Shown here piece by piece: positions 18,622 through 64,000 of a stretch of 64,000 bases of DNA. The translations under genes and the position numbers were made by a program. The number at the start of each line of letters is the position of its first letter. Within the stretch, counting starts at the first letter, position 1. Below the pieces are notes generated by a model. That model was given only the letters and a program-made list of their open reading frames with translations. It searched no databases and was not told the DNA's origin. The stretch spans positions 248,001 through 312,000 of the forward strand of contig NW_027305510.1 in NCBI RefSeq assembly GCF_039555335.1. Reading direction: 5' to 3'. This DNA comes from Amphiura filiformis (taxonomy: Eukaryota > Echinodermata > Ophiuroidea > Amphilepidida > Amphiuridae).

Positions 18622-18639
18622 CTGAAATTTTGTAAAAGA

Positions 18640-21866: not shown

Positions 21867-21879
21867 CTGAAATGAAAAG

Positions 21880-21995
21880 ACACCCAAATGTATTAGAAAT
21901 ACACCCAAATGTCTCAGAAATACACCCAAATGTATTAGGAATACACCCAAATGTATTAGAAATACACCCAAACGTCTCAGAAATGCACCCAAATA
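21880..21995. repeat. 21-bp minisatellite array
   Basis: Five to six monomers (ACACCCAAATGTATTAGAAAT and variants with GTCTCAG), beginning about 13 bp upstream of the exon acceptor. Confidence 0.88.
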
Positions 21996-34249: not shown

Positions 34250-36650
34250 CAGAAACATTACTAGAAAATACATATAATCAATACAAAATAAAATAAAACA
34301 AAACATAAATTATGTGAACTGGTTAGAGGAGGTGGGACTGGGTGGCCAATTTGAAGGCCTGGAGGGAAGGAGCATTGATAATAGCTTCAGGGAGATAATT
34401 CCAGATGGAGGAGGCAAACGGATAAAATGATCTCTGGGACAATGAAAGCCGGCGGAAAGGAACTTGAACAGCGCGGGAATTGAGGTTTCGTAGACCGGGT
34501 CTGGGATGAGGCTGGAAAGGGTTGGGAGAAGAACAAAGATTGGCAACGATTTTAAATAAGTGACACAGAGAAGCAACATCACGACGCTTACTAAGAAGAG
34601 GCAGGTCGGAATCCAATAGAAGGTCCTCATGGGAGAGATTCCAAGACTAAAGAATGACACGACAGGCGAATCTTTGGGTAGACTCAAGACGGTTGGTAAG
34701 GGTTATGTTCAGAGGATGCCAAGTAGTACAACCATACTCCAGAATGGGGCGAACCAAGGCCAAGTACAAAGAACGACGGATGCTAAAAGATCTATGAATG
34801 AAGCCGATGATTTTGCGAGCTTTTCTGCATATGTTATCGATGTGAAGATTCCAGGAAATATATAAGCTTGTCAGACAGCCAGACAGCAAGCAATTTCGCA
34901 GATGACACACATTCAATAGGCAGGCTGTTACGAGTGAGATTGAGATCCGGAAAAGGGTCCTTCTTAGTGGAATTGACCATGCCTTTTGTTTTGGAGGAAT
35001 TGACAGAAAGGTGATTAAGGGAGAACCAAGAATGGATGGAATCAATGTCGGATTGGAAATCAACCAAGTCATCAGGAGCAGAGATAGGCTTGAAGAGAGC
35101 AGTATCGTCTGCATAAAGAACAAGAGAACTGTTTAAAGAAAAGGAAGAAAGACGCAATTCATTAACATAGACAAGAAACAACAGAACTCCAGAAAGCACA
35201 GGAACAGATTGTGAGTCCACACCACGGAACACGGATAGCAACCAACTGGGACCTGTTGGACAGGTAAGACCTGAACCAAGAGAGGAGTGGACCGGAAATA
35301 CCAACAGCTCTGAGTTTATGGAGCAGAGGGCTGTGGGGGACGCGGTCAAAGGCTTTGGATAGGTCAAAAAGAGCCATGGCGATGCTTTTGCGATCCTCAA
35401 GGTGATTGTACCATTCATAGAGAGCAGTTGAGAGTGCATCCGTGGTGGAAGACTTGGGTAAGAAACCAAACTGTCTGTTTGTGAGAATATTATTGTTGAT
35501 GAGATGCTGCAAAACCTGACTATGAATAACCTTTTCCAGAAGGTTACTGCAAATTGGTTGCAAAGAGATAGGTCTGTAGTTAGAGGCAGCGTGAGGATCC
35601 CCAGACTTGAAAACAGGGATCACTCGAGACAGTTTCCATGCATCAGGAATACGGCCAGTTATGAGACTCAAGTTGAAAATATCAGAAAGAATAGGCGAGA
35701 CAGTAACCACAGTATGTTTCAACATGAGGCTTGTGATTCCATCAATCCCAGCGACTGAGTTGTTGTTAAGCTTGGAGATTAAGGGGTGAATGTCATCGCT
35801 GGAACAACTGCAAAGAGAGATAAAGGAATAAACGTCATAATGGAGAGATGGAATGTCAGAAATATTGGAGTCATTGAAGCATTCGGAAAAGAAATTACCA
35901 AAAATATTGGCAATCTCAGCCGAAGTGGTACCAGAAGTGCCGTTATGGTGAACACTATCAGGAATTGGAGATTTACCTGACCTGGACTTGCAATAACTCC
36001 AAAAACGTTTGCTAGGAGAATCATTGTCAAGGAGATTGTCAAAGAAAGTTTGTTTAGCATACTTAAGTTCATTACCTAATTTGTTTCTGATAGTTTTGTA
36101 TTTGGCATAGAGTTCATCATTTTTTTTTTCCATTTTCTGAAAAGAATATGTTTCTTGCGACACATTTTTCGCAAGTCGCCATTTAACCAAGGAGGTGGAT
36201 CTTTTGATTTGCATGAGACGGTCTTTTGAGGGACACATTCCGTGATAACGTCAATGAAAAAAGAATGGAAATGATTCCATGCACTATCAACATCCTCCCC
36301 TTTGGTGAGTTGGTAAGTGGACAATATATAATTGGCCTTTTCCCAGTCGGCTTTGCTGTATTGCCAGATTTTGCGGCGTACAACGTCGGGTTTGGTTAGC
36401 TGAATATCAAGACTGCAGTGAATAACAGAATGATAACAAGCACCAACAGGAGGAAGGTGATTGACATTGGTAATCAAATCAGGATCATTACAATATATGT
36501 GATCAATGAGAGAGGGAGTAGTGATAAGTTGGGTCAGAGACAGATTGATGGAGGTTATGAGCAAACATAAAATCAGAGATATCATTGAACAGATGGCGGG
36601 ATTGGCCCAAGAGGTTGACATTGAAGTCACCTATGACAATAATCTTATGG
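34250..36650 (-). pseudogene. LINE (CR1/L2/jockey group), 5'-truncated and frameshifted
   Basis: Reading right to left: the last part of an APE-type endonuclease (VIGDFNVNLLG, PSLIDHIYCNDPDLI, 36650-36100) and a linker (YSFQKMEKKNDELYAKYKTI). The RT follows with FWSYCKSRSGKSPIPDSVHH, PVFKSGDPHAASNYRPISLQ, QFGFLPKSSTTDAL and LFDLSKAFDRVPHSPLLHKL (motif A). After a frame change come VLYADDTALFK (motif C) and the C-terminal SRAVQVPFRRLSLSQRSFYP region. There are at least three frameshifts. The 5' end stops at the endonuclease GDFN motif, a normal LINE truncation. The 3' tail is an A-rich run on the minus strand (about 34262-34310). Confidence 0.92.
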
Positions 36651-36789
36651 CTAGCTCCAATGGGCAAAAAGTATGATTATACACTTTTCATAATACATGA
36701 TTATGGTCGGCAATAAATTGCGGAATATTGTAGTTTTGACATGTTTGATATGGATATCTAGAGGCAAGTATTTAAGTCTTTTTATCTCA

Positions 36790-37042
36790 TTTGTTTGTTG
36801 CTCAACTCTCTTCACACGGGTGTCGACTGCAGACGACATGTTTCAATTTGTTTTAATTCAACAATTTCAGAAATGTAAATTTTCATGACCATATTTGGAA
36901 TCAGCATGAAAAATGCATTAAAATGAGTACAAACAAGCCTAGTATTGGTTCAGTAGTTCTTAAGATAGCTCTTAGATATTTTGACAAAAATCTCAAAACT
37001 TGGACTTTTTGTGTTGAGGCCTATGGCTAGCACGCAGAGCAT
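36790..37042. repeat. Dispersed repeat, copy 2
   Basis: From CTCAACTCTCTTCACACGGG, TGTCGACTGCAGACGACATG to CTATGGCTAGCACGCAGAGC. It matches 60528-60772 closely over about 240 bp, and its right half matches the arms at 7820-8028. Confidence 0.8.
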
Positions 37043-37044
37043 TA

Positions 37045-37271
37045 AAGAGGAAGCTCCGCCAGAGCAGTTCTTCTCGGGAAAACCAAACCTGCCTGGTTAT
37101 CAAATTAATCAGTGACAAGTGAATTTGCCAGGTGCTAATTGTTCTTTTAATGTTATTGCATTATAGCACCTGTCAAATTCAGAGATAACCTTATCACTGA
37201 TATATTTGACAACCAGGCAAGTTTGGTTCACCCCAGAACAACTATCCGGTACTCTGGTGGGGCTTCCTCTT
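37045..37271. mobile_element. TA-flanked MITE
   Basis: AAGAGGAAGCTCCGCCAGAG on the left mirrors CTCTGGTGGGGCTTCCTCTT on the right, with inner AACCAAACCTGCCTGGTTAT / CAACCAGGCAAGTTTGGTT also inverted. TA is on both sides. It abuts the end of the dispersed repeat at 37042. Confidence 0.75.
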
Positions 37272-38803
37272 TAAATGAAGTGTATCACGTGGTTTTTTTT
37301 TACAAAACCAACATAATTACCTCAAAAGTAAGCATAATAGCTAGGATAAAAACTTTTACTAACAGATCAGATGCCTATGAAGTCTGCTTTTTTTTTAAAT
37401 CTCGTCTATTCTTATAAATCAACAGATGTTACAATTCGAGGTGGTACTCAGTACAAATGACCATACGGTATATGTACCGCAAATAGATCATTTTCGGCCT
37501 TTTGGTATACCAATTACCTCGTTTCCTAGGTTAATTTTATACCAAACAATGTTTGACTTATTTTTGGTATATCGATGGGTCCATATTATATTGATTGTAG
37601 CCTGGTTCAATGCATATGTGCCACGGTTTTGGGGTACCTTTTCAGTAATTTTGGTATATCGATGCGTGGAGACCAATATGGGCCTTTGAGTGACAGTGTT
37701 ACTGACAAGGGTCCCCTTAACAGCAAAACATACGCGCCCTCTCCCCTCCCACCTCCGGAGTTCTGCCAGTGAAGGGAGTGGTATGGATCATGGGTTATTG
37801 TTACGAGTCGTACTTGACTCAAGGCCAAAATCACCTTTTACCCGAACTCACACGAATGCACAACACAAATACACTGTTTGATTAAGCTAACAAAATCTGA
37901 GTCTTTAATTAAAAGTTAAATATTATTGGTACATATAACAACAATTGCATATACAATAAAATCACACAATCACAGTTTTATTCTATCTGTACTTAACCAG
38001 CGGTCTTCTTGTTGGTGATCCTAGAGTTCTTGCAATGTTCTGGACGGCTAATGTATATATCCTTATTCACTTGTCCTACGAAAATCAGCGAAGTCCATTG
38101 TACACTTGCGTTTATAAATATCCTTGCGTATGAAATCCTCACACGAAAATGATGCTTCTTTCTCCAATAATATATCTCCTTGCGCTACTTTCTCCAAAAA
38201 TGGTGTTTCTTTCACCAATCGCTCTTTCTCCAGGGAACAGGCTTCTTCAACACTGCTCCGCTGTATTTGACAGATGTGTGGTTTTCATAAACCCAGCAAA
38301 CTCCAGCAATTCGACAGAAGAACTTTAATCCTTTGATGAGGAAGAGCACATTTGTGTACTCATAAATCTCCTTCGTTGCTGTATTAAAATAGCAAAATTA
38401 TTGACTATGTAAACTGGTTAAAATATACTTCTTTTTTGAAGCACGAAACACCAACACACCCGTGTGGAGTTTTACAATCTCCCATGACATCAGCAAACTC
38501 CCGCTCTCACATTTTATACTCCCAATCTCTTAATAGACCATTCTGTCACATTTACTTCCTGGGGGACTTTCCAAAATGATCTCCTTTTCACAATCCAAGG
38601 GATTTTCTCAAGATTAATTATACACATTAACCTTTCTCATTACATCGCTTCGTGGGTTTATGACTTAAAACATCAACTCTTGCAAGTGCAAGGGGGTTTC
38701 CCATCTCATGAAATACGTTCAGCTTGTAAACAAAGCTAAATAATTGAATTAAATTACTTTAAATTGAATTAAATTGAATTAAATTAATCAACAAAAATTC
38801 ACT
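37272..38803. other. Unassigned region upstream of a LINE
   Basis: No convincing coding frame. GGTATATCGATG occurs twice near 37567 and 37652. AAATTGAATT repeats just before 38800. The right part may be LINE 5' UTR. Confidence 0.35.
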
Positions 38804-39394
38804 CATGAAGCCAAAGTGTGGGCTTTCCAATCTAGCAAATTGCCACACTTATTGATCCTCCTCCTATTGGGCGGTCAGGTTGAAATGAATCCTGGACCCT
38901 TATCAAATTCAATTAAGAACTCTGAGGCACCTGCGAGTTGCGGCATCTGTGACAATGAAGTCACAAATAATACTTGGTATCACCAACACTGTGCAAGCAT
39001 TTCCGACAACACTTATTACAACATCCTCCCAAGAGACCGTGTTTCATGGATCGGCTGCCTTTGTGGGCTCCCAAATTATGGCCCAGTGTCATCCTTTTGT
39101 GAGAGTTTCAGTTTTGAAAGCCAAAATAGCTTCCAAACCCTTGCCACTGATTGTGCCACCAACTTGTCACTTGACCCTGATTTGACCATTGATCTTGAAA
39201 ATGCAAAACCGTCTTGTACCTCAACTCCAAAGAAAGTGCCCCCAAAGAGAGCACAGCAACACAGAAACAAAAAGCACAAACTTAAAGCCATTATTATCAA
39301 CTGCGATGGCCTGAAAGGTCAGAAAAAACAAGCTGCTTTCCGTGCAGTAGTTGAAAACACTGATCCAGATATATCATCATGGGTTGTGATGTGA
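38804..39394 (+). pseudogene. LINE N-terminus: 2A-like motif, PHD finger, endonuclease start
   Basis: The frame read from 38816 has a hydrophobic run LPHLLILLLLGG followed at once by QVEMNPGP (38876-38899). This closely resembles the 2A recoding motif D-V-E-x-N-P-G-P, with Q for D. A PHD-type zinc finger follows (CGICDNEVTNN, WYHQHCASI, WIGCLCGLPN). Then comes the first strand of an APE endonuclease (KAIIINCDGLKGQKKQA). Near 39370 the frame shifts. An ATG at 38805 is in another frame, so the true N-terminus is disrupted or lies elsewhere. 2A motifs at the N-terminus of CR1-group LINEs are known from sea urchin and amphioxus. Confidence 0.8.
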
Positions 39395-41971
39395 GAGTAA
39401 GATAGATGGTTCCATTGCTACCTACTCTATTTTCCCTCAACATTACAACATTATCCGTAAAGACAGAAACTGCAATGGGGGCGGTGTTTTCTTGGCCATT
39501 AGAAATACTCTTATCTTCACTAAGCTACCAGAGCTAGATTCCAACAGTGAGATAATATGGGCCAACCTCCAATTTGCAAATGCAAAATCTATCCACCTTG
39601 CCAGCTATTACAGAACTCCAAATGCAGGCTCAGCCTCTGTTGAAAATTTGAATACATCCCTCTCAAGTCTGTTTTCTAAACACCCTCGCCAAGTTCCCAA
39701 TTTAATAATTGGCGGTGATTGTAACTTTGGTGACATAGACTGGGACACTTGGACACCAACTAAACAAAGAACAAAATCCATCCATGAAAAATTCCTACAA
39801 TTGTTGATGGAAAACTCCCTGGTGCAGCTAGTTCGTGTAGTTACTCGCCCTGCATCAAACAGCACCTTGGATTTAATCATTACATCACATCAGAATCTTG
39901 TGAGCAACATAGAAGCACTTCCTGGTATCTCAGACCACTTGGTTGTTGCTTTTAGTATTGAAATGAAACCCCACCACTGTGTCAAACCTTAGCGCAAGAT
40001 ATTTCTCTTCAAAAAAGCTAACAATGACTTGCTAAAAGAAGATGTTTCTAAACTCACGGAAGAATTCCTTGCGTCAAATCCTGAAAATAATAGTGTGAAC
40101 TCAAACTGGACCTATATCAAGCAAAAGCTCACTGAGCTTATGTATAAGCATGTCCCTTCCAAACTGTCTAGTAATAAGCACCATCTACCATGGAAAACTC
40201 CCTGGTGCAGCTAGTTCGTGTAGTTACTCGCCCTGCATCAAACAGCACCTTGGATTTAATCATTACATCACATCAGAATCTTGTGAGCAACATAGAAGCA
40301 CTTCCTGGTATCTCAGACCACTTGGTTGTTGCTTTTAGTATTGAAATGAAACCCCACCACTGTGTCAAACCTTAGCGCAAGATATTTCTCTTCAAAAAAG
40401 CTAACAATGACTTGCTAAAAGAAGATGTTTCTAAACTCACGGAAGAATTCCTTGCGTCAAATCCTGAAAATAATAGTGTGAACTCAAACTGGACCTATAT
40501 CAAGCAAAAGCTCACTGAGCTTATGTATAAGCATGTCCCTTCCAAACTGTCTAGTAATAAGCACCATCTACCATGGAATAATCAATCCCTTAAGAGACAG
40601 AAGCGCAAGCGGGATAAACTATTTAGAAAAGCTCGTAAATCCAACTCCTCCCATGCATGGGCAGCCTACAAAAATCTTCGCAAGAAAGTCACCAAATCTG
40701 TTCGGCACTCACATACAAAGTACCTGAACGAGGTTGTCGGAGGTTCTTTACAAGAAAACCCTAAGACATTTTGGTCTTATGTTCGCCTCATGAAAACCGA
40801 AAACATCAGCATCCCTCCTTTGAAATTTGATGGCAAATTGCATGCCACTGATAGAGCCAAAGCGTCTGCCTTAAACTCTCAGTTCAAATCTCTGTTGAAC
40901 GTTGAATCTCCAGTTGACATACCTAGCAAAGGTCCCTCTCCGTATCCAGACATCAGTTGCCTTGATATAGGAGTGGAAGGTGTTGCTAAGCAGTTAAACA
41001 ACATCAACCCAAACAAGGCCGGTGGCCCGGATGAGCTTCCAGCAAGACTTCTAAAGACCGTAGCATTTCAGATAGCACCAGCAATGCAGTTCTTAGCAGT
41101 CATACAACCAGGGCTGTGTTCCTGAAGACTGGACCAAAGCCATTGTCACAGCCATCCACAAGAAAGGACCAAAATCCAACCCGGGTAATTATCGGCCCAT
41201 CTCCCTTACATGCTTAGTGTGCAAGGTAATGGAACACGTTGTTTTAAGTCACATGTCAAAACACCTAGCAGATCATCGTATTCTTCTTGACTCTCAGCAT
41301 GGATTTCGAGAAAAACTGTCCACGCAAACACAGCTTATATCTTCAGTTCATGAATGGGCATCAACTCTAAATCGCCGGGGTCAGACCGACTTGGTCTTGC
41401 TAGATTTTAGCGAGGCCTTTGACCTGGTGCCACATCATAGACTTGCTGCAAAATTGGATTTTATGGCATCCGTGGACCAACCCTGAAATGGATAACAGCC
41501 TTCCTCAGTGAAAGACAACAGGCGGTGGCAGTCAATGGTAGTCTCTCGTCATGGGAACAAGTCACATCTGGTGTCCCACAAGGCTCAGTTTTGGGACCGG
41601 CGCTATTTCTCTTGTATATAAACGATATAAATCAACATCTCCAGTCCAACATTCGCCTTTTTGCTGATGACAGCATTGTGTTCAAAGAAATCGCCTCTCC
41701 ATCTGATCATAACATCCTCCAGCAAGATCTTGAAACTCTGGCTACCTGGGCCGATACATGGCTTATGTCCTTCAATGTTGGGAAATGTGCCATCATGTCA
41801 GTGACCCTGAAGAAAAAACCCAGCCTCTTCCGATATTCCATCAATGGAGAAGAGCTGCAGAGAGTTTCACAGCACGATTATCTCGGCATCACCATTTCTG
41901 ACAATTTGAATTGGACAGCCCATTGCCAAAAGACTGCAGCCAAAGCAAGTCGCACCCTTGGTATGTTTTAA
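39395..41971 (+). pseudogene. LINE endonuclease and RT, broken, 3'-truncated
   Basis: Endonuclease: KDRNCNGGGVFLAIRNTLIF, LASYYRTPN, LIIGGDCNFGDIDWDTW and LDLIITSHQNLVSNIEALPG. RT: FWSYVRLMKTENISIPPLKF, NPGNYRPISLTCLVCKVMEH, DSQHGFREKLSTQTQL, LVLLDFSEAFDLVPHHRLAA (motif A), SGVPQGSVLGPALFLLYIND and IRLFADDSIVFKE (motif C, FADD). Breaks: an in-frame TAG after HCVKP, frame changes near 41098 and 41462, and an exact 383-bp tandem duplication (39807-40572). The RT ends abruptly near 41970 after ASRTLGM. Clade: CR1/L2/Crack-like by PHD plus APE plus RT layout. Confidence 0.92.
39807..40577. repeat. Exact 383-bp tandem duplication inside the LINE
   Basis: The segment starting ATGGAAAACTCCCTGGTGCA at 39807 begins again at 40190. 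I see no differences between copies. ATGGAA is present at both original borders, a 6-bp microhomology. 383 is not divisible by three, so the copy also breaks the frame. Confidence 0.93.
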
Positions 41972-42390
41972 GACAATTACATTATCATACATAGAAACAC
42001 AATTTTGAAACATAGCATCAATCCTATCAGTACAGGTATTCAGCTTTAGCATCTGGAACACGATAAACAGTACCAACTAAGATGGGGTTTGCTGTGAGGA
42101 AGACATATTTCAACCCAAAGTGCTTCAACATCATTGATAAGAAGATTGCTTTTTTCAACAAAGGTTAAATTATCCTTAATGTAAATTACATTTCCCCCAT
42201 GGTTTTCATTTTTCCTGTCTATTCTACACAAATTATAACCATTAATTTCAATTTCAGAATTATCAATACCATTTGTAAGCCAAGTTTCATTGAGTGACAA
42301 CAAATCAATATTATTATCATGAAGAAGAATGTCAATATACTCAACTTTGTTTTTTAAACTCTGAACGTCGTCGAAGGGGGTTAGTGCCAT
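41972..42390 (-). pseudogene. LINE endonuclease fragment, opposite strand
   Basis: Right to left: SLKNKVEYIDILLHDNNIDL, LSLNETWLTNGIDNSEIEIN (catalytic Glu in NETW), GYNLCRIDRKNENHGGNVIY and VEALWVEICLPHSKP. After a frame change near 42085 comes RIDAMFQNCVSMYDNVIVLK. It is the front half of an APE endonuclease from another LINE, lost at the point where GDFN would follow. It meets the plus-strand LINE head-on at about 41970. Confidence 0.88.
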
Positions 42391-42920
42391 TTTTTAGGCG
42401 CTCTTGACACATAATTTTCTCAAATTTTTGGGTCCGTTTTTTGCCCAGTGGGGTTTGACGCAAGATTTCTCTATAAATTCGGTGTGCCTAAAGCACTCGA
42501 TTTTTTCAGTAAATTCGTGTCATTTCTGCAGTGCAGGCTTTTGTTTTATGAAGAATTTCTATAATCGTCGAGGGGTCTTACTGTCATTTTTCAGACTGCT
42601 CGTTGCACGCAGTTTTTTCAAATTTTTGGGTCCGTTTTTAGCCCATTGGCTTTTGACACGAGATTTCCCTATAAACCTCGTGTGGCTAAAAAGCATTCGA
42701 TTTTCAGCAAATTTGGTGCTTTTTTGATACTGGCTTCAGAACGTCGCTCAAAAGCCTTCATCATTTTTAGGCGCTCTTGACACACAATTTTCTCAAATTT
42801 TTGGGTCAGTTTTTTTGCCCAGTGGCTTTTTGACACGAGATTTCCATATAAATTTGGTGTGGCTAAAAGCACTCGATTTTTTCAGCAAATTCGGTGCTTT
42901 TGATACTGGCTTAAGAATTT
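42391..42920. repeat. Three tandem repeats of about 187 bp upstream of the replicase
   Basis: Copies start near 42391, 42582 and 42762. Shared blocks: TAGGCGCTCTTGACACA, TTTTCTCAAATTTTTGGGTC, CGTTTTTTGCCCAGTGG, TTTGACACGAGATTTCC, TATAAATTCGGTGTGGCTAA, AGCACTCGATTTTTTCAGCA. The last copy ends about 70 bp before the ATG at 42987. They may be promoter or subterminal repeats of the replicase element. Confidence 0.85.
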
Positions 42921-42986
42921 GACGCCTTTGAAAATAAAAAGAAATCGATTTAAAAATTTTGCGCTTTTGAAAAAGCTTGAAATAAA

Positions 42987-44753
42987 ATGGATCAAAATTT
43001 ATCATCTTCATCGCTTCGGGAATTGAAGCGTATTGCGAAAGAACGCGGGTGCAAAGGATACTCGCGTATGACGAGGGATGAAGTTCTTGATCTCCTTTCA
43101 GAGCCGCCACCCCCTTCGCAAGTTACGCTTAGGGAACTGAAACGCAGAGCGAAAGAAAGTGGTGTGAGAGGATATTCCACAATGACGAAACCCCAGCTCG
43201 AAGAATTGCTGGCTAACCCCATTGCTCTCGAGAATATGACAGTCAATAGACTGAGAACACTCGCAAGAGACAGGGGCATTCGAGGGTACCCTCGTCTAAA
43301 TAGAGATGCTCTCATTCGTTCGCTAGATCCTCCACCCGACGAGCCCGTATATTACGCGGTAGAGTTGGAAATTAAACTGCATCTTGCTCTCAGGACCTGG
43401 TATGAACTCAAAAGAGAACGTGCTCAATTCACGCGGGCTGACGCGGAGAGATTTGAAAGAGAGCTGATAAATCTAACGGATACGACCAATGAGACTGTTC
43501 AGGAACTTATTCGGTTATTGGACATGGTGGATTGGTTCGCGCATAGGGAATCGCTGGAACCCCTCGTAAGAATTGTTTCGATTACCCGCGACGACGGCAC
43601 CGTTGAAAATTTTGACTGGGAGAACAGGGACCTTGCTCAAGGGTTTGACGCACCGCAAGTTTTTTCGCATTGGACGGACTCCACGGAGTGGGACTCGCCG
43701 GAATTTCGACCGAACAGGTGCATGGCAACTGCGTTTCTTCAAAAGTTCAAACTCATTTTGAACAGGCGCAGGGTAAAACCGAATCCGTTGCTTACCTACG
43801 AGGGCCTGTGGAAACTTGCCAAACCCGACCATCCCATCCCTGGACCTGACGAAAAGTGGAAACTGTCGTGGAGCCATTCCACAGTTTGGTTGGAAAAGTG
43901 GAGAATTCCTGGTCTTGCCATTGACATCAAAGGGAAAGTTCGATGCAGGTACGAACCACTTCGAGTAAACATGCAGATTAACTTTGCTAAATTCTATATC
44001 CTCATCCACAATAACCACGCTTGGCCCGTGAACAAGAACATTCAGGAGTTTGGGCAGAAATACGCTCAACGACAAATCGAACTCGAACTCCCTCGCCCGC
44101 GGAATTCTGAAGAAATTTCTGACAAATGGCCCAGACCCAACGAGAAACAACGAAAACTCTACTTTGTCGATTCTGTGGGTGAAATTTTGAATCTTGAAGC
44201 GGTCGAAGTTGAAAAGGGCGAGACCGCCAAATGGACCACCGATATTGTTGCAGTCACGAGCGAAGAACCCGAAGATTTTATCAAGGAGTTAATTCGAGAT
44301 CACAAGATTGAACCGGGAAGTCTTACCTGCAGAAACGGGGTGGTGGACGGTTTCTCGATCCAACATCCAAAAGACCCCCGCGCAGAAATCCGAGTGAAAC
44401 GGGCTCTCTCTGGAAACATCGTCGGCGATCAACTGGACGACAGAAAAGCTTGGTCCGAGGAGCGTCATGAAAATGTTTTGAAGTGGACCAAAAAGCTGTC
44501 CGACGAAGTGACTCCTCGCTCGGGACTCTCTCATTACAGTGAAGATGTTGTGAAGCTGTTCGATCGATTTAGGAGAGGCCCAAGATGCGGTCTTTTGCGC
44601 GCGCCACCGGATGGCAGTGTGCTGGGAATTGACGTGGCCCGAGCCTACACTCACTTCATTCGAAACATTAAAAAATTCCGATATTCTCGAAGTTTGATCG
44701 TCTCGAGAAAATGTCCGAGGGGGGTATTTCTGACGAGACATTTTACTTGGTAG
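42987..44753 (+). CDS. Virus-like replicase, N-terminal part (Rho-N/SAP repeats)
   Basis: An ATG shortly after the 187-bp repeats opens 588 codons without introns, visibly GC-richer than the surroundings. Residues 5-40, 48-77 and 84-112 are three copies of an L-R-x-L-x-x-x-A-K/R-x-x-G-x-x-G-Y-S-x-x-x-x-x-x-L motif (LRELKRIAKERGCKGYSRMT, LRELKRRAKESGVRGYSTMT). This is the Rho-N/SAP-like nucleic-acid-binding helix-turn motif. The middle region (120-530) is hydrophilic and unassigned. The end contains GIDVARAYTHFI (about 44626-44661), which resembles the first catalytic motif of a divergent family-B polymerase. The frame is lost at an A run near 44670, so the last 28 or so residues are out of register. 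Function in replication is inferred. Confidence 0.75.
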   Translation: MDQNLSSSSLRELKRIAKERGCKGYSRMTRDEVLDLLSEPPPPSQVTLRELKRRAKESGVRGYSTMTKPQLEELLANPIALENMTVNRLRTLARDRGIRGYPRLNRDALIRSLDPPPDEPVYYAVELEIKLHLALRTWYELKRERAQFTRADAERFERELINLTDTTNETVQELIRLLDMVDWFAHRESLEPLVRIVSITRDDGTVENFDWENRDLAQGFDAPQVFSHWTDSTEWDSPEFRPNRCMATAFLQKFKLILNRRRVKPNPLLTYEGLWKLAKPDHPIPGPDEKWKLSWSHSTVWLEKWRIPGLAIDIKGKVRCRYEPLRVNMQINFAKFYILIHNNHAWPVNKNIQEFGQKYAQRQIELELPRPRNSEEISDKWPRPNEKQRKLYFVDSVGEILNLEAVEVEKGETAKWTTDIVAVTSEEPEDFIKELIRDHKIEPGSLTCRNGVVDGFSIQHPKDPRAEIRVKRALSGNIVGDQLDDRKAWSEERHENVLKWTKKLSDEVTPRSGLSHYSEDVVKLFDRFRRGPRCGLLRAPPDGSVLGIDVARAYTHFIRNIKKFRYSRSLIVSRKCPRGVFLTRHFTW

Positions 44754-45394
44754 AAGTTCGGAAAACGGACAAGATTCTTTTTCCGCAGCGCCAAGATCTC
44801 GTTCCCGGTTCTGTTTTGCGCTACGCCCGAGAATGCGGCATCGAGTTCGAGATCTTGGGACAGCTCGTGCCCCATCGGATTCTCAAGGTTAACCCAGCGA
44901 GCGTTATTGACAAAATGTACGAGTCCGACCTTCAAGACGAAGACAAAAATACGTCGCTAACCTAGTGTACGGGCTTGCCGCGAGGAAAAACAACAAAGCT
45001 GCTTTTGGTCAGCTGTTCCAAGATGTCGACGAAGCGAAAGCCTACGGCAATGGGCAGCTGAAACTCAGACTCGCTCCAGATCTTTTATCTCGCGATCGAT
45101 GCGGTGATTCGAGAGCTATCGGAGGGCTACCGACCCGTCGCGGCGCTGATTTTGAATGGAATGCGAATGTATCTTCACAAAATGGTGTCCGCGCTTGGAC
45201 CATGTGGACCCGCCTCAATTGCCGTGCGAGTTGACTGCGTGTACACCACCCTGACGAAAAAAGAAGCTAGAGGAGCGCTTTCTGGCTTTACCTTCGGAAA
45301 AGAAATTGGGCAATTGAGATTCGTTGAAGATTCGAGACTGCCAGACGCCCCCCAACAAGGAGTGAGTTTGACGATGAAGAAGCCAAGGGAATAA
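44672..45394 (+). pseudogene. Divergent family-B DNA polymerase palm, broken by frame changes
   Basis: The polymerase core continues in three other frames: 44672-44948, 44946-45085 and 45080-45360. The recognisable motifs are YVANLVYGLAARKNN (44949-44993), resembling the polymerase-B K-x3-N-x-x-Y-G motif, and IAVRVDCVYTTL (45217-45252), resembling the last catalytic motif around an Asp. In between is SEGYRPVAALILNGMRMYL, and after it SGFTFGKEIGQL. Breaks are at about 44670, 44946, 45082 and 45357, each beside a short homopolymer. They could be decay or uncorrected sequencing indels. No intron signals explain them. Identity as a PolB-type replicase is from motif order and memory of similar unannotated proteins. 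A profile search would settle it. Confidence 0.65.
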
Positions 45395-46462
45395 TCGAAC
45401 GACTGCCCGAAAACACAGTTTTTTGTGAGGACGACGACGGAAACGAAATCGAGGTTCCAATGACCCGTACTCCGGAACCTCTATTGGTTACAGGCAAGTA
45501 CCCGGGAAGCGGCAAAAGCAGACTAGCCTTGCATTGGGGAAACAAGAGGGAGGATATGCTTGTTGTGTGCCCTACGAATGTCCTTTGTGACTCTATTATT
45601 CAGCAAGGCTACACCACCATAACCACGCACAGACTTTTGGGTAGAAGGCAGAGAGGCTCTGAAGAAGAAAACTTCAAACCCTTTGATGTCTCGGAGTACA
45701 AAGTCATTTTGTTCGGAGAAATTTACTTTTACCCCGTCTTTCAGCTCGAGTGGATCCGCGGTTTCATGGCGTCTCATTCTGACAAGATCTTCATTGCCAA
45801 CGGCGATCCAGCTCAGAACAGTCCAGTGGGGCTGGAGCTCAATGTTGCCTTTGACGACTACTACGATTACGTGATGCGCCAGTTATTTCCTCGAAGACTT
45901 GAGTTGCAAATTCCAAAACGATACGCGCTGGGAGATCGTCGAAGAATGATGAGGCTTTACGACGAACTGCTTCAAGATCGAGCATATCATCCGTTTCTTA
46001 CAGCCAGAAAATATCTTCCGGTTGTAGACTGGTTGGACTTACCTCCGGATGCCGCGAGATATCCTCACGTTGCCTTTACAAACAATTCGGTCGATCGAGT
46101 GAATTACTGGGCCCAGATGAAGCTGCGCAACACTAGCGAGTGGCAAGTGGGAGACGTGGCCATTGGTAAAACCTGGGCGAGAGTCGGCAAGCATAAGATC
46201 AACTCCAATTCTGAATACCTCGTGACGAACAATACGCAAAAAGAAATAACCGTGAAGGGCCAAGATGAAATCTTGCGCACTTTGGAAAGAGGTCGAGTGC
46301 CTAAACTTTTTAAGAGACCCTGGTGCAGAACGAGTCACTCCATTCAAGGTCAAACTATCGGCGATAAACTGTACATTCACGATCCCGATAGCCCTTATGC
46401 CACGGCAAGATGGCTAAGAACAGCTGTCACTAGATGCAAAACTTTGGACATCACTTTGGTCA
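45362..46462 (+). CDS. Superfamily-1 helicase domain of the replicase
   Basis: The frame is open from about 45362 (first Met codon 45460). Walker A is GKYPGSGKSRLAL. Motif Ia/Ib is VVCPTNVLCDSI with TTITTHRLLG. Walker B reads VILFGEIYF, with Gly where Asp is expected. Motif III is IFIANGDPAQNSPVG (G-D-x-x-Q). Motif V is TSHSIQGQTIGDKLYIHD and motif VI ARWLRTAVTRCKTLDITLV. This order is that of SF1 DNA helicases (Pif1/Dda/viral type), here directly downstream of a polymerase core, so an encoded replicase polyprotein is likely. The Walker B change would be expected to abolish ATP hydrolysis. Confidence 0.85.
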
Positions 46463-46920
46463 AGTATCACCCACCATCCACATTCTCGGGTTTCATTAAA
46501 GGAGAATTCCTTAGAATAATAAGGAACTCCAGCAATGTGCATGATGCAAATGAACGATCAGACTTATTTACGGAAAAACTGATAACCCGAGGATACACCC
46601 GCGACTTCATTAACAACATTAGAAAAACAGTTTCACACACTAGAAGATCGAACTATCTTAAACCTAAACCACCCCAAACTAACAACTATCCTCTTGTCTT
46701 CATCACAAAATACACAGGACACCTAGAATCAAATACTCTCAAACAGGCTCTTAACAAACATTGGGACATCATTAAGAATGATATCAAACTTTCAGGCATA
46801 TTTCCCAATACTCCACTTATAGCGTTCCAAAGAGCAAAAAACATACAAGATAAACTTGTAAATGCTAAACTACCACCAGATGAGGATCTAGCTATTCTTA
46901 CAGATCTAGCTAATGAGTGA
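46463..46920 (+). mobile_element. Penelope-like element piece fused in frame to the helicase
   Basis: After helicase motif VI the frame goes on for about 150 codons: HPPSTFSGFIKGEFLRIIRN, LITRGYTRDFINNIRKTV, VFITKYTGHLESNTLKQALN, KHWDIIKNDIKLSGIFPNTP and LIAFQRAKNIQDKLVNAKLP, then a stop. That series resembles the region between RT and GIY-YIG endonuclease in animal Penelope-like retroelements. The expected Cys-rich GIY-YIG part is absent. Base composition turns AT-rich near the join. It looks like an insertion that replaced the replicase stop codon. Confidence 0.7.
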
Positions 46921-47518
46921 ATCATAAACATTATAATAGGTCTATTAAAACCACCGAACTCTTACCATACATATTCTTCGTCTATTCCCAAACAAAATCA
47001 AAATAGACCACATCACCAAGATTATACTTAACACATACTTCTCAAACCCTAAAACTAACATTAAATTATTAAAATGGAGAAATGGTATTTCAACCTTGCA
47101 CCTGATGATTTCCTAGCTATAAGGAATGAAACTGCAGTAGTGCCTTTTTTAGGAATTTTTTACTCAAAAATTCCTACCTCCCTCTTGTTATCTCCAATAC
47201 TCATTTTCATAATTATTGTACTATACATACCTAATAATTCCTATCATAACTGGATAATCTCTACACCTTAAAACCATTATTACTTTACACATTACGATTA
47301 CGAACTAATATCTATTCACATCTTTATAAAATCTTTGTCTAGAATCTCTATGACGTCTCTGAATGGAGGGAACATATCCATCCCTATTATCCAAATTCAT
47401 TCACCCGGTTATTTTTTTTATCTGGGACACGCTGTATTTTAAAAAGAAGCATAAACGCAAATACACAGCAGTATACATTCTAACGCATGCCATTTTCCTT
47501 AGAATCAGACACGCATTA
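46921..47518. other. AT-rich tail with a small hydrophobic ORF
   Basis: 47074-47271 could encode 65 residues with a hydrophobic segment (SLLLSPILIFIIIVLYIPNN). I do not recognise it. It may be retroelement 3' sequence or chance; otherwise nothing. Confidence 0.3.
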
Positions 47519-47858
47519 GGGGCGCACCATTAGATTTCCAGGGGGGGCATGGGAGTTTGTTGAAAAAAAAAACTTTGCCCACTAGTGAGAAAAAAAAAAA
47601 ACTTTGCCCACTAGTAAGAAAAAAAAAAGAAATTTTGCCTCACTGATGAGTAAAAAAAAACTTCCCCACCCAACTTTGTATAAAAATGTACATTAAAATT
47701 GAAAAAAAATAACTTCGCCGCCGAAGGCGGCGAAAAAAAAAATTTGGTGCTCTTGGAGGCGAAAAAAAAAAAAAATCCGCCGCCCTCGGCGGCGAAAAAA
47801 AAAGATTCTGCCTGACCCAAACTCCCATGCCCCCCCTGAGAATCTAATGGTGCGTCCC
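47519..47858. mobile_element. TTA-flanked MITE (PIF/Harbinger-like)
   Basis: GGGGCGCACCATTAGATTTC, CAGGGGGGGCATGGGAGTTT mirrors the right end (AAACTCCCATGCCCCCCCTG, AGAATCTAATGGTGCGTCCC); the arms are about 40 bp. TTA occurs on both sides (47516-47518, 47859-47861). The interior alternates A runs with GCCGCCGAAGGCGGCG-type hairpins. Confidence 0.87.
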
Positions 47859-48193
47859 TTACATGCACGCCACATACATACATACATACGTTGGAATGAT
47901 TATCTTTTCTCGAATGCTGATAAGAACCACACGGCTATGGCAGTTTCAAGACAGGTTTCGGCACTGCGTCTGCTGTCTGCTGTGTTAACTAACATATTAT
48001 TGATTCCAGTGCAGTATTTGTAAGGTAATAACGTGAACGATAATAATTATGTGTTTAGCCTAAATAAATTCTAAATAATGTTGAATATTTTCCTTGACAC
48101 ACATGTACACACCCCGTACACACCACACGAAAACATACCGTACGTTTGCAATATATTCTTTTCAGATCTACATAAATCTTGGATTCCATCACG

Positions 48194-48279
48194 ATGGCGG
48201 ATATTGATATACTTGGCATCGATGAGTTGCTCGTAATTTTTAATTTGTTATCGCTGTATGATAAGCTTATGGCAATGAG
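48194..48279 (+). CDS. F-box/LRR protein, first exon (F-box N-half)
   Basis: ATG in the context CATCACGATGGCGG opens 28 codons plus two bases: MADIDILGIDELLVIFNLLS, LYDKLMAM, then AG|GTAAAT. Joined to 51068 it forms a continuous F-box, with the L-x-x-D-E-L-L-x-x-I-F-x-x-L-S-x-x-D-K-L pattern on this exon and VCKKWYHIV on the next. The intron thus splits the F-box just before the V-C-K-x-W-Y motif, as in many FBXL genes. The exon is too short to be found by open-frame length; I found it by looking for the missing F-box half. Confidence 0.88.
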
Positions 48280-48541
48280 GTAAATCATTTTCCTATAAAT
48301 ATCTTAATGCATGCCTTTTAGGAGTACACACACACTATGTATAACGTGTGTTATTACCGGGCTTAACTAATATCGTGTGTTGCTATCTACTTCTGATGAT
48401 AAAAGTTTACAGTGTACATGTACAGTGTGTGTTACTATCTACCCCTGGTGATAGAAGTTTACAATGTGTATGGTACAGTGTAGTGTGTGTTGCTATATAC
48501 CCCTGATAATAGAAGTTTACAATGTACATGGCACAGTGTGT

Positions 48542-48784
48542 CATTAGAGAATGAATTTGGAGAAAACCTTCTGATAATTACAAACACTCGCTGAGCAGCA
48601 AGACCTTCATTCCAAGCTTTTAATCCGATAAGCTGATTATCTATTTGTTTTCATGATTTGGAAGACATTATTTGATGTATTACTGAGCTCAATCATCTGA
48701 AATTACTGGAGCGTGAGCCACTCAGGCTGGTGGCTCAGCATAGTATGTTATTAACAAGGTTTTCTCCAAATTCGTTTCCTAATG
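48542..48784. mobile_element. MITE inside an intronic minisatellite
   Basis: CATTAGAGAATGAATTTGGA, GAAAACCTT mirrors AAGGTTTTCTCCAAATTCGT, TTCCTAATG. GTGT flanks both sides (48538-48541, 48785-48788). It splits one unit of the GTTGCTATCTACC repeat, whose two parts rejoin if it is removed. Confidence 0.8.
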
Positions 48785-50399
48785 GTGTTGCTATCTACCC
48801 CTGATGATACACGTTTACAATGTACATGGTACAGTATAGTGTGTGTTGCTCTCATCATGCAGTTATTGTTAACTACATGTATGCACACAACACAGGGGCA
48901 CTCACAATAGGCAATTGAACCCTACTGGTAGCGCTGTGTTGTAGATACAGGAGATGAACTAGTTAGCGTTATATATCAAAAAGTATAAAATCTATGATTT
49001 TAGTACTTGCTCTATGTTTCAGAGACTTATTCTTTTCAAAATATCTGAATTTTCAAACCGGTACAACCTTTAATAACAAGGGACCATACATTTTGCTTCA
49101 CCGGGCAGCCCTGGCTTGGTCGTATTTGGAAGAAACCGTAATAGGTACAAATTTAGTACTTTCTGTCAATCAAGTATGGTTTATTCTCTACATGCCAATC
49201 TTTAAGTAATTAGCATAGTCCTTATAATAACGGGAGGCCGCCTTGATGAGTAAATGACAGCAAACCAGTGAAAAATACCCCAAAACTCGGTCAGTTGAGC
49301 TCCGCTCGTACATGTCAATAGCGTCATTATCGATTGGATTAGTCGACCGTAGCGGGCAATTCGATCGCTCATTGGATTAATATTATCACGTGATAATAAA
49401 TTTGCATTGGACAATAGATTACTATAATGGTTTAGTACTGCATATATCGGTTTAATCTTCACTAAGCGGGTTTATGGCTGGAAAGGTCACGGTGAATTTA
49501 CCGTGGACATAACTGCACTATGTATACCCCTGATGATAGAGGTTAATCATGTATATGGTACAGTGTGTGTTGCTATCTACCCATGATGGCAAGGGTGGAC
49601 ACTTGAATATGAAAGTGACGTACCTGTGCCTACCGGAGTACAAAACTAGGTGTCTTCTGGTGGATATTTTCGTCGAAAAGGGGGTCATTAAGTGGGGGTT
49701 CCAAGAAAATGGGGGTCATTCAGTGGTGAAACGCTATAGGTGGGTGTCATTGACCGTGAAAAAGTAACATTCTGGGTAAAAATGTGCAAAACTTTGTAAA
49801 ATTGAACAATTTTGCAACTAAAATGCCTAAAAATGTTAAATATGTTATAAATGCGCGCGAAGTGGGTAAAAATTTGCATAGTTGGTGTAAAGGTGATGAA
49901 AAAAGTGGGTAATTTATGCCAGATGTACCTCAAAAAGGGGGTCTATTGACAGGCACGTGACACGTATCAATGATGGTGCCCCTCGGTATATACCCGTCCT
50001 GATAGCACACTGTGCATAGTATGTGTGGGTGGGGGTGTGTGTGTGTGTGCGCGTTGTACATTGGCGTGACAAGGGGGCAAGAGGGCAGCTACTACTCCTG
50101 TGAGAAATCTGCACCAGGATCACAACAGGAAACTACAGGAAACTTTCTCGGATTGTAGGTGGTCATTTTCCCACCCAAGCCTTTTTCTGTTATTATTCTA
50201 GCCCATGTTTGCCACCTTGAAATTTGCCTTGCTCGCCCCCTTCGAACCTTTCCCCCATACTTTACCCAACGCCACTGGTGTTGTGATCTACCTCTGTTGA
50301 GTGTGTCTTATGATCTACTCGTTAGGACATTTGGCAGGGGTGTGTGGGGTGTGTTGCTGGTAGAGTGTGACAAGTTGTGTTGTTACAGTGTGTGTTGCT

Positions 50400-50756
50400 C
50401 ATAAGCGTAGATCCCGGGGGATGGGGAATAAATCCCCCCAATATTTTGCCAGAGGAGGATGGTTCATGCACTCACCCCCCCCCCATGTTAACGCCTGTAT
50501 GTGAGTTTCTGACCAAATTTACCTCATATTTGGCCATTTTAGCCACCAAAATACCAAATTTTGTGCGCCTCGGGCGAATTTATTCCGCTTTTGAACCATA
50601 TTTCATCAATTTTGCTTCAATATGGCAAATTTTATTTTGCGCGCTTCGTGCGCATTTTTACCATGAACTTTAATATTTGATCGCTAAAAGGTGCTACTTC
50701 AAGAATTTTTTTTCAAACCCCATCCCCCCAATGTCAAAAAGAAATCTACGCCACTG
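50400..50756. mobile_element. hAT MITE with 8-bp target duplication
   Basis: The left end CATAAGCGTAGATC mirrors the right end GAAATCTACGCCACTG (the left tip is mutated from CAGTGGCGTAGA). GTGTTGCT is duplicated exactly at 50392-50399 and 50757-50764. The interior has CCCCCATGTT and AAACCCCATCCCCCC. Confidence 0.82.
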
Positions 50757-51067
50757 GTGTTGCTATTTAACTTTGATAGGTAGGTTGGGGTGGGTGGTGT
50801 CCGTGTTGCTATGTGGTAAATTTTCAGTTTTTGTTAATAAAAAGCACTGATTTCTTTGCCCCAGAATGAATGTGCCAGTTATGTTTTCTGTGTCTGTTGA
50901 CTTTTATGTGCATTCAAAGCAGATCGAACGAAATAATTAATTGAAGAGTGGTTTTTGCAGGTTGAGCATATTGGGATTTATTTACACATCTTTTTCTTCG
51001 GTTAAAATAAAATAAGAGAAAATAATACAGCTAGTTTTTTCGTTTGTATATCGTTAAATTTTCCCAG

Positions 51068-52376
51068 GGTGTGCAAGAAATGGTACCATATCGTCAGAAA
51101 AACTCACGCTTGGAAAGTCATCGATTTCCGTGACAACGGTCCTGTGATCACAATTAACGAAGATGATGATGGAAGATTTTATAAGCGATATGTGGCTAAA
51201 CCTGGCCAAAATATATTAAAATTTCGCGAGAAGTTAGACTGGTATCTTCGTGATGTCAAGAGATGGGAATTCCCGATGAATTCACGCAAGGTCCTATCCT
51301 TCCTTGGTTTATTTGCTGGCGATGCGTTGCGGGAAATTTACCTGACGGTGATGAGTGGTGGAATTATGGAATTCCTTCGAAGAACCTGTCCTAATATAAT
51401 TACATTTGACTTTAGCAGGTGCTATGTTGAAAGTGTGTGCATTGATATTGATGAGACCATAAATGAAAAACTATACATCCCAATTAAATTGAAACGATTG
51501 GGACTGCGGATCTCACAACCTCGACGATATCGACAAAATGTCAAGATCAATGAACTACTATTATCATGTGTTGCTAATGATTGTTCTGAATTACAAAGCA
51601 TATGTCTCTGCAATTTCGAATTGACTTCAACAAGCATACACAATTTAGTTAAAATACCTAGTTTGCGGGATATTGAGTTATCTTCTTGTCCTTACTACAC
51701 AGACTATACAGACCACTATTCATCTGAATTTGACGATATTTTGACTAATTCGATTGGGGTTTTAGAAACACTGACTCGCCTTAGAATTGATGAGGTAGTT
51801 TCACATGATTTGTCTACTTTTCTGGGCAGCATTGGAGACTGGGAACACCTGCGAGAATTAGCATTAATACATGTAGCGTTTTCAGAAGAAGCGTTTGAAA
51901 AGATGATTCCTGGTTTGATAAATCTGAAAAGACTTGAGTTACAAGGATATTCTATTTCATCACCTATTGTTACTCTTGTTGGGAATGAATGTAGGAAATT
52001 GGACTCATTGCTACTAAGAGATGGAATGTATTCTGGTAAAAGTTTGATGTCACTATCTCATCATCCCACATTAGAATTATTGGAGGTCCAGAACTGGCCT
52101 TACAGACGAGGGGTTTGGAGGAGGGATACGCCGGCTGTAGAGTCGGAATGGCAATGGCTTCACACAGTATTTAGTATGCTAGAAACCCTACCCAAGATAA
52201 AACGTGTCAAGCTTTGGGGTAAAAATGTCGCCAAAGTCTATAATAAAGGAACATTTCCGGTCCTTCATTTGGCTGAGATTGAAGCAATTGAACCATCCTG
52301 TAACGAAGATACACATAAGAAGCAAAATGGTCGCAGTTTTAGCAAAAATTCTTTTAAAAGGATGTTTAAACGTTGA
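51068..52376 (+). CDS. F-box/LRR protein, second exon (FBXL-like)
   Basis: The acceptor TTTTCCCAG precedes 51068, which completes Arg and then VCKKWYHIVRKTHAWKVIDF, the C-half of the F-box. The rest is a leucine-rich-repeat region with irregular units (LKRLGLRIS, ELQSICLCNFELTSTSIHNL, LRDIELSSCPYY, LETLTRLRIDEV, LRELALIHVAFSEEAFEKM, LKRLELQGYSI, LDSLLLRDGM, LELLEVQNW). It ends in a basic tail (SFSKNSFKRMFKR) and TGA. The total protein is 464 residues. F-box/LRR proteins are substrate receptors of SCF (Skp1-Cullin1-F-box) ubiquitin ligases; the LRRs choose the substrate, unknown here. The last 300 coding bases are duplicated downstream. I do not assign an orthologue. Confidence 0.9.
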
Positions 52377-52953
52377 TTTTGTTAAAAGTCTTGTTAAGTG
52401 TTGAACACTTTATATTTTAGTGCAAAGGTCCCACTTGGCATGGCTGTTTCTTGCGACAAGAGGGAAATGTTCCTCCAAATTAGCATAAATTATGCTAATT
52501 AGTATCCAAAATTGAATTATTGGAGGTCCAGAACTGGCCTTACAGACGAGGGGTTTGGAGGAGGGATACGCCGGCTGTAGAGTCGGAATGGCAATGGCTT
52601 CACACAGTATTTAGTATGCTAGAAACCCTACCCAAGATAAAACGTGTCAAGCTTTGGGGTAAAAATGTCGCCAAAGTCTATAATAAAGGAACATTTCCGG
52701 TCCTTCATTTGGCTGAGATTGAAGCAATTGAACCATCCTGTAACGAAGATACACATAAGAAGCAAAATGGTCGCAGTTTTAGCAAAAATTCTTTTAAAAG
52801 GATGTTTAAACGTTGATTTTGTTAAAAGTCTTGTTAAGTGTTGAACACTTTATATTTTAGTGCAAAGGTCCCACTTGGCATGGCTGTTTCTTGCGACAAG
52901 AGGGAAATGTTCCTCCAAATTAGCATAAATTATGCTAATTAGTATCCAAAATA
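52074..52953. repeat. Exact 440-bp tandem duplication of the F-box gene tail
   Basis: GAATTATTGGAGGTCCAGAA at 52074 starts again at 52514. The copies look identical through the stop codon and 3' flank to AGTATCCAAAAT. Confidence 0.93.
52514..52816 (+). pseudogene. Duplicate of the F-box protein C-terminus
   Basis: The second copy of the 440-bp unit holds an open frame for the last 98 residues, identical to the gene's end. It has no F-box or acceptor of its own, so it should not be an independent gene. Confidence 0.85.
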
Positions 52954-54266
52954 TGGTATTCTTTATTTGGACCATTTCGCCTAAAATTTGTACTAAAATG
53001 CAGCATTCACCTCCTTAACAAGTCTACTATTAATTATAATAAAAAACAGTCGAGAGAAATTAAGAACAAATCTGCTGATTTAAGGTAAAATGCTTTGGTG
53101 TATAATATTTTGGTGAGGAAAAAAGGCGACCAAATTAGAAAATAAAGTCGTTTGTCTCAAAGTTCCCGTACCCATTAGTAAATTCGTTCGAATTAGTCCC
53201 GCCTAAAATAGTCAAAATATTTTTGTTTCTTCTTCTTCTTTCTTCTTATTTTGTAGAATTTTAAATTTGAAAGTTTTAAAAATGAAATTTTAAAACTAAA
53301 CGAGCTCGATTTATTGTAAATGTAAGATACAAGAAGACAAAAAAGACAGAAAGGAATGAAGGCATAATTCAAATAAAGTTGTGAGGCCTAACAAATAACT
53401 ATTGAAATGGAGAAAGTGGTAGAAATTTTAGTGTGAGGGGCAAGGCTAAATTTTTTGTCCCCATTTGTCAAATTTTTGTCCCATTTTTTGCCCATCTAAA
53501 GGGCACTTTACCCTTTGTCGTCCCCTTTTATCCCTGAAAAAATGTCTGTATGTGGGGGGGGGGGGGGCAGTAACAACCCTTTCTGCGGCTCCCACTGACT
53601 ACGCCCCTGGAAGTCGGTCATTTGTCTATGGAAAACCATCCCATGTCAAGATTATAATTACATGAAATTGACATATAACTAGGATTAAATAGTCCAATAG
53701 ATTCACGTAACCATCGTGCAAATCAAATTGGCAGAATTTGGCAAAGGATTCAGAAAAATTATAGTTTGACCTTTTTATACGTATGTGTAGTGATCTACGC
53801 GCAGAGGTCATTGAGATGTCTTATTAATTGTGGCTCCACGGGCGAAAATGAAAAATACGTCGATTTTGTTTACAATTTTCTATAATTATTTAAATGAAAA
53901 ATAATACTTTGTGCTATTTAGATGTTTGGTTAAATTGTTAGTGCATCAAAAAAAAACCAAAAAAAAAAACCAAAACGATTGAGCCGCAGTGAGTTCTTTG
54001 GCCCATGACAATTGTTGTATTACATGGCCAAAGAAATTACATGGTCTGAGGTAGTTAAACCTTTTTTTTCACCCCTGCGGGGACAATATTAGACCGATGA
54101 CGTCACAGTATTACTCTTTTGTCCATAATTCCTTTTCAGGAAATTCTAGAAAGGTCAAAGTATAATGTTTTTGATCCTTATTGCCAGAGAATTACGATGC
54201 AGGTGTTGGTTATAATTAATTTCGAACTTGCCCCTCAGTGCAAAACTTAATGACTTTTCCCACTAA
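52954..54266. other. Non-coding, one possible decayed MITE
   Basis: 53425-53612 has TTTGTCCCCATTTGTC-type repeats and a G run, ending GACTACGCCCCTGG, like the tips of CAGTGGCGTAGTC-type MITEs. The remainder is unrecognised. Confidence 0.35.
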
Positions 54267-61440: not shown

Positions 61441-61683
61441 AGTGAGTGGTGCACCCCGTCGGGTTAAGGTTTTTGAATGATACTGTAATGAATGATAATG
61501 GGATGTGTGACTGTCTGCTGACTGAACTTTTGAGCACACAGAGAGTCTGCAAATGTGCATATGAAAAGCTCAGACAACAGGCATGTGCCACATCTATCCC
61601 AAGCATATTGGAATGCCTAAATGATTTTGTCTCACCAGAACCTACATGGATTTATTCCATGGCATATGTTAGCAGTATTGACA
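61441..61683 (+). other. Unassigned non-repetitive ORF region
   Basis: An open frame from 61446 encodes MVHPVGLRFLNDTVMNDNGM, then CDCLLTELLSTQRVCKCAYE. It is not repetitive until the minisatellite begins. I do not recognise it, and its start lies in repeat-derived DNA. It may be an exon or element remnant. Confidence 0.3.
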
Positions 61684-63375: not shown

Positions 63376-64000
63376 TACACGATATATTCAATTCAGTTTT
63401 ATTCACAATATTTCAGGAAATAATCATTTTCTTTATCAGATTGGGTGAAAATATACTATTATATCATTATGAATTCGGCAGAGTGACGAATCGAGAATTT
63501 TGAGCAAATTGAGTTTTTGTATGCTTATGATTATGTTTCAGTTTATCTTTTATTTCCACCAAAAATTAATGGTAAATCTTACTCACCGACGTAGATATTG
63601 AAATTCTGATTTGGACGAATCGCGCCTAAGTGCGATAAATGAATTCGGCAGAAAGACGAATCGTATACTTAGCTGTACAAATCATGTTGATCTATAGTAT
63701 TGTATAGCGGGAAACCCCGAATTTTCTATATAACATGTCCTACACATATATATTTGATACCAACGTATAGCTGTAGGTATCTTCTATCCAGTGATACCAA
63801 AATAAGTACAAACATTCCCCCACATGATATTGCTGTGGTTTAATAATGTGAGTGCGCGCCCGTGAAATTGGAAAATCCCGGAAAATCATTCGCAAAATAT
63901 AGGTCAATATTGTTATTTTTGCTTTAAAATCCTCGAGTTTTTGCTAAATATTACAGGGATGATTATTTATAACTTCATAGCAAGTTAAGTCTACATAGCC
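63376..64000. other. Unassigned, with a duplicated GAATTCGGCAG motif
   Basis: ATGAATTCGGCAGA-GACGAATCG occurs at 63470 and 63649. A donor-like CGTCG|GTGAGT lies on the minus strand near 63589, but no convincing exon precedes it. No gene supported. Confidence 0.35.

Follow-up and report, generated by a model that had tools for sequence, protein, structure and literature searches.

Fusions of a DNA polymerase with a helicase were reportedly named in a 2016 paper. The type that concerns us here, pPolB-S1H, joins a protein-primed family-B DNA polymerase (pPolB) to an SF1 helicase and comprises the Tlr1-like helicases of polinton-like viruses, Tetrahymena Tlr1 and transpovirons (PMC11071308). According to the same source, the chain begins with a highly variable N-terminus, a domain in the position of the terminal protein (TP) and a vOTU domain with a conserved Cys and His (PMC11071308). 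The palm that follows keeps motifs A and B and lacks the first Asp of motif C, there is no exonuclease, and the chain ends with an SF1 helicase and, in some members, an HNH or GIY-YIG domain (PMC11071308). The reported sources of published fusions are protist and algal viruses and selfish elements as well as giant-virus plasmids (PMC11071308, PMC12721341, PMC4642659, PMC7805220, PMC10120064, PMC10328495), and animal Polintons are described as having a different replicase (PMC11071308). Here we analyze a 64,000-nucleotide stretch of DNA (contig NW_027305510.1; the whole stretch is called the window) that holds what we read, with a probability of roughly 0.86, as the remnant of a pPolB-S1H replicase gene, a decaying and truncated endogenous copy. 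On our best reading its source was a polinton-like virus or transpoviron-like replicon of a subgroup that carries an N-terminal array of Rho-N repeats.

The remnant occupies positions 42987 to about 46476 of the plus strand and is one gene but not one open frame. It encodes, in order, three Rho-N repeats, a conserved Cys/His region, a family-B polymerase palm and an SF1 helicase, with the following features:

42987 to 46476, plus strand: replicase gene remnant, five open stretches in frames 3, 2, 1, 2 and 1 (from the list of open reading frames (ORFs), tblastn and motif positions)
43014 to 43097, 43128 to 43211 and 43242 to 43325, plus strand: three Rho-N repeats (Pfam Rho_N, E 2.7e-15, three stretches)
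43326 to 43706, plus strand: domain in the TP position, placed by comparison with the published layout and conserved with relatives (tblastn)
43707 to 44033, plus strand: vOTU-like region, with both the Cys (RPNRC) and the His (HNNHAW)
44625 to 45253, plus strand: family-B palm, motifs A, B and C in three frames (from hhalign of the family against phage protein-primed polymerases)
44625 to 44654, plus strand: palm motif A, GIDVARAYTH, frame 3
44947 to 44973, plus strand: palm motif B, KYVANLVYG, frame 1
45224 to 45253, plus strand: palm motif C, VRVDCVYTTL, frame 2
45493 to 46461, plus strand: SF1 helicase, Dda/Pif1-like, Walker A to motif VI, frame 1, motif II altered

The ORF list gives a first open stretch of 590 residues at 42981-44753, followed by overlapping stretches at 44672-44965, 44911-45234, 45062-45394 and 45328-46920. 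These are parts of one broken gene, because relatives hold the whole chain in a single protein that matches the window in order. Comparison of seven relatives with the window by tblastn covered 42999-46491 in frames 3, 2 and 1 with E-values down to 0.0, and P0001 matched in three segments of 57, 60 and 67% identity. Palm and helicase share one protein in the relatives, whereas the window copy is broken between them. The matches stop at 46476-46491, which corresponds to residue 932 of 1016 in P0001 and residue 1173 of 1263 in P0005; the window has lost the C-terminal end that the relatives carry. This copy is almost certainly non-functional. No second copy was found, as no other place in the window matched the seven relatives at E<=1e-3 (best stray match E 0.062).

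A preliminary description of this locus had reported Rho-N repeats, family-B polymerase-like motifs and SF1 helicase motifs in this order on one strand, and motif positions, Pfam and tblastn locate every one of them there. It had also taken them for a single reading region, which is correct in that the relatives define one gene but incorrect in that this gene is spread over five stretches. Its proposal of a viral or selfish-element replicase with palm and helicase in one chain and no need for introns agrees with our results. The layout that it considered undescribed has, however, already been reported in polinton-like viruses, Tlr1 and transpovirons (PMC11071308). Its suggestion of an integrated DNA virus or an undescribed transposon survives as to a sequence of foreign composition integrated in a eukaryotic genome, but the kind of replicase is one already described.

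Relatives were collected with protein searches, each of which scored only the roughly 8000 candidates with the most words in common with the query; the family may therefore be larger. The first stretch (588 residues) as query returned at least three proteins, P0001 (1016 residues), P0002 (344 residues) and P0003 (905 residues). An alignment of P0001 and P0003 returned at least six, including P0004 (1283 residues) and P0005 (1263 residues), and residues 530-1263 of P0005 returned at least 19, down to 22% identity. Altogether at least 21 different proteins were obtained (P0001 to P0021), the longest having 1444 residues; residue conservation was counted in 13 of these 21 after alignment, and a separate 20-sequence alignment was also used. 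Eight weak loci were obtained from IMG/VR, in which two of 207 ORFs of at least 80 residues (431 and 444 residues) match the family profile in the helicase part only, and the remaining IMG/VR scans gave no relative. Additionally, 594 pattern matches in GTDB contigs contained no relative, and phage records yielded no relative with either the window helicase (E<=1e-5) or P0005 (E<=1) as query. The two IMG/VR helicase ORFs (L003, 5739-7031; L005, 2172-3503) match at E of about 1e-17 and include no polymerase part. P0009 to P0013 form an alanine- and arginine-rich branch that stands apart in the helicase tree (100/100), and P0010 represents 51 member sequences.

As judged from profile-profile and fold comparison of the relatives, the palm is of the protein-primed PolB type. 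The window retains the core residues GID, K..YG and RVDC, and the Asp of motif A, the Lys and Gly of motif B and the Asp of motif C are present in all 13 aligned relatives, the last being invariant in the 20-sequence alignment as well. None of the 13 has the first Asp of a DTD motif C, which matches published pPolB-S1H. For reference, phage records supplied eight protein-primed polymerases (phi29, PRD1, Vibrio 1.020.O, GC1, Cp1, archaeal virus LCBv1, BD811P2 and Av-1), with which the family was compared by hhalign. With the 20-sequence alignment this gave a score of 47.5 (E 2.1e-4) over 233 columns with the three motifs in register; 60 column-shuffled controls scored at most 21.5 and a reversed control 20.9. 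The palm alone reached E 8.7e-6 with a probability of 83%. Among structure models, which were built from shallow alignments of 7 and 6 rows, that of P0003 had phi29 DNA polymerase as its sole PDB match at E<=0.001 (1.9e-5), and that of P0001 had adintovirus and mavirus polymerases among its viral fold matches. P0008 begins downstream of motif A.

The helicase of the window matches the Dda-like helicase family phrog_325 in PHROGs (E 3e-10), and the only Pfam match of the last open stretch is to a viral helicase, below threshold (E 0.034). In the PDB, the family profile finds T4 Dda (E 4.9e-12), a RecD-type helicase (E 6.8e-5) and chains deposited as ATP-dependent DNA helicase/TPR domain protein (E 1.2e-9 to 4.3e-9), which we take to be bacterial Pif1; the window helicase alone has no match at E<=1 among PDB sequences. 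The Gly and Lys of Walker A, the Glu of motif II and the Arg of motif VI are found in 13 of 13 aligned relatives. The full motif set noted in the preliminary description is indeed in place, except that motif II reads FGE in the window and FEE or FDE in the aligned relatives. Pfam HNH is matched by three of five C-terminal pieces taken from relatives, in each case below its cut-off.

A helicase tree that combines 19 relatives with the window, in which deeper forks are unsure and include long branches, places the window with P0001, P0006 and P0007 (support 96/97). This grouping bears on whether the gene could have come by chance from a protist, symbiont or giant-virus element living with the animal, with no animal-infecting lineage in existence. 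Such a transfer would fit the published pPolB-S1H elements, which are reported from protists, algae and giant-virus plasmids, as well as the single copy in the window, and yet the window helicase falls into a supported group with three close relatives. We regard a chance transfer as less likely than not.

Upstream of the palm, Rho_N is also found by Pfam in relative P0002 (E 1.1e-15). The domain at 43326-43706 is a putative source of priming, a role suggested by its position. The Cys and His of the vOTU-like region stand where the published pPolB-S1H family has its vOTU protease and are both kept in the window; in the 13-sequence alignment the Cys is present in 12 of the 12 relatives that span it and the His in 13 of 13, with 99 residues between the two in P0005. 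These conserved residues and their position point to a putative vOTU protease. An OTU-like chain is absent from the best 50 fold matches of either structure model, which says little as the models are poor. In the 13 aligned relatives the segment from the His to S498 contains no invariant column, and thus no exonuclease site is kept, although a poor structure model aligns this segment to the N-terminal portion of phi29 polymerase.

A number of observations weigh against this identification. The hhalign probability is just 46% with the 20-sequence alignment, and the 13-sequence alignment performs less well (score 41.8, E 0.001, probability 21%). P0007, which lies outside the 13-sequence set, has Asn in place of the motif A Asp, and the structure models have a mean predicted local distance difference test (pLDDT) score of 50 and 53. 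No polymerase was matched in Pfam-A by five pieces of the window at E<=1 or by 14 relatives (E<=1, and E<=0.05 for a later set). A plain profile search without a polymerase hit is the outcome that the preliminary description had named in advance as speaking against its proposal; the polymerase emerged instead from the profile-profile and fold comparison of relatives. Furthermore, the likeness to pPolB-S1H was established from the published description of the family and not from the sequence of a named member. The vOTU and TP domains are putative assignments by position and, for the vOTU, by residues, and no other viral genes were seen in the window.

Set beside pPolB-S1H, the family shares its domain order, the retention of motifs A and B, the missing first Asp of motif C, the missing exonuclease site, the Cys/His pair before the palm, the SF1 helicase and, in relatives, an HNH-like end. 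It differs in the Rho-N array at the N-terminus (window and P0002), in its probable animal host and in the broken state of the copy. The pPolB of Polintons/Mavericks and adintoviruses has the same protein-primed type of palm; that of Polintons, however, is described as an unfused chain of TP, vOTU, exonuclease and palm (PMC11071308), whereas here a helicase is fused and no exonuclease site is conserved. These two differences rule out a Polinton proper. The OmPLV fusion of Oxyrrhis, also endogenised in a eukaryote, likewise unites an SF1 helicase with pPolB in a single chain, but there the helicase comes first and here the polymerase does (PMC12721341). Phage DNA polymerases of the phi29 type have the palm motifs in register and provide the best PDB fold match; in contrast to our family they are single-function enzymes with an active exonuclease, a separate terminal protein and no helicase.

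By analogy with the published family, the intact protein would have been a one-chain replicase that copies linear double-stranded DNA. The Rho-N array would bind nucleic acid, the domain in the TP position would supply the priming residue, and the vOTU protease would free the primer domain. The palm would then extend DNA without a proofreading exonuclease while the Dda/Pif1-like helicase opens the duplex. Protein priming, protease release, a linear genome and nucleic-acid binding are all functions that the published family leads one to expect. The HNH-like end of the relatives resembles a homing endonuclease.

The composition of the remnant sets it apart from the rest of the window, as the preliminary description had noted. 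Its GC content is 48.8%, while 1071 other segments of equal size average 38.4% (standard deviation 2.1, maximum 42.2%) and none of the 1071 is as high; its CpG observed/expected ratio is 1.14, whereas the other segments average 0.64 and do not exceed 0.96. Such values suggest a foreign source and, one step further, would be consistent with a recent arrival. We found nothing in favour of an ordinary host gene or a pseudogene of one; this reading is rejected on account of the foreign GC and CpG and of the family layout of a viral replicase, and its likelihood is negligible. Undepleted CpG, as expected in a young insertion, can also be cited for the idea that the gene is intact and only appears frame-shifted through errors of assembly or reads, as can two exact tandem duplications at other places in the window (units of 383 and 440 bp), which could be assembly faults. 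Frame errors, however, would explain neither the departure in motif II nor the replacement of the C-terminal end, and we consider this explanation improbable.

The remnant is isolated and bounded by other repeats, with these flanks:

42363 to 42917, no strand assigned: left flank, imperfect tandem repeats of ~176-198 bp that run into a minus-strand endonuclease fragment of a long interspersed nuclear element (LINE)
46477 to 46920, plus strand: right flank, unrelated to the relatives, open in the helicase frame, GC 36.7%, no Pfam match

The LINE fragment, at 42049-42393, matches Exo_endo_phos at E 3.2e-4, below its cut-off. The left-flank repeats apparently include the start of the minus-strand LINE endonuclease ORF and are possibly repeated LINE 5' sequence. 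The right flank happens to be open for ~148 codons in the broken helicase frame, which by chance produces a 530-residue open stretch; its protein is presumably like the tail of a Penelope-type retroelement, which Pfam does not confirm.

No capsid, packaging ATPase or integrase gene was seen among the window's long ORFs, which were read by eye and in part scanned, and no terminal inverted repeats flank the remnant within 36000-53000. The two inverted-repeat pairs in that interval, at 47518-47859 and 48542-48784, both lie outside the remnant. A polinton-like virus would be expected to carry double jelly-roll capsid and packaging ATPase genes within one element, and a Polinton/Maverick an RVE integrase together with terminal inverted repeats. 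Little weight can be placed on the absence of further genes because the remnant is bounded by other repeats. The same consideration applies to the possibility that the source was not a virus but a capsid-less self-replicating element, similar to a transpoviron, linear plasmid or transposon, with the replicase as its main gene. The presence of the replicase alone, its use by transpovirons (PMC11071308) and the lack of a noticed capsid or ATPase gene would agree with such an element, but a remnant bounded in this way says little about missing genes and has no flanking terminal inverted repeats. We regard a capsid-less source as less likely than not.

Scans of eight window pieces identified, among others, two reverse transcriptases, a 952-residue C2H2 zinc-finger ORF and a leucine-rich repeat (LRR) protein, and on these grounds the window is probably animal nuclear genome. 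Rfam gave no RNA gene at gathering score. The inverted repeat at 47518-47859 has arms of 42 nt that are 93% complementary and 258 nt apart. At 39807-40578 a 383 bp unit is exactly duplicated in tandem within a LINE ORF, as a recent duplication or an assembly fault, and at 52074-52952 a 440 bp unit is likewise duplicated at the end of the LRR-matching ORF (51006-52376). Minisatellite-like repeats of 21 bp at 61681-63379 are long enough for repetitive open frames, and similar 21 bp units occur at 7357-7771, 18638-18808, 21285-21636 and 21876-21994.

While this kind of replicase is already known, its Rho-N head, shared by the window and P0002, and its genomic setting are new. Among the papers listed by our literature searches, none reports in its title or the start of its abstract that an animal genome contains a pPolB-S1H replicase. 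We tentatively propose, at somewhat less than an even chance, that a lineage of polinton-like viruses or transpoviron-like replicons not reported before carries a Rho-N-headed pPolB-S1H replicase, replicates in animals and enters the germline. The window would then hold a fossil of this lineage, and P0001, P0006 and P0007 would be living or recent members. As Pfam-A names no polymerase in the 14 relatives scanned, pPolB-S1H genes are easily overlooked or filed as lone helicases. If true, the occurrence of pPolB-S1H in an animal genome would extend the known distribution of the replicase and would provide a lead to an unrecognised group of animal-associated DNA elements.

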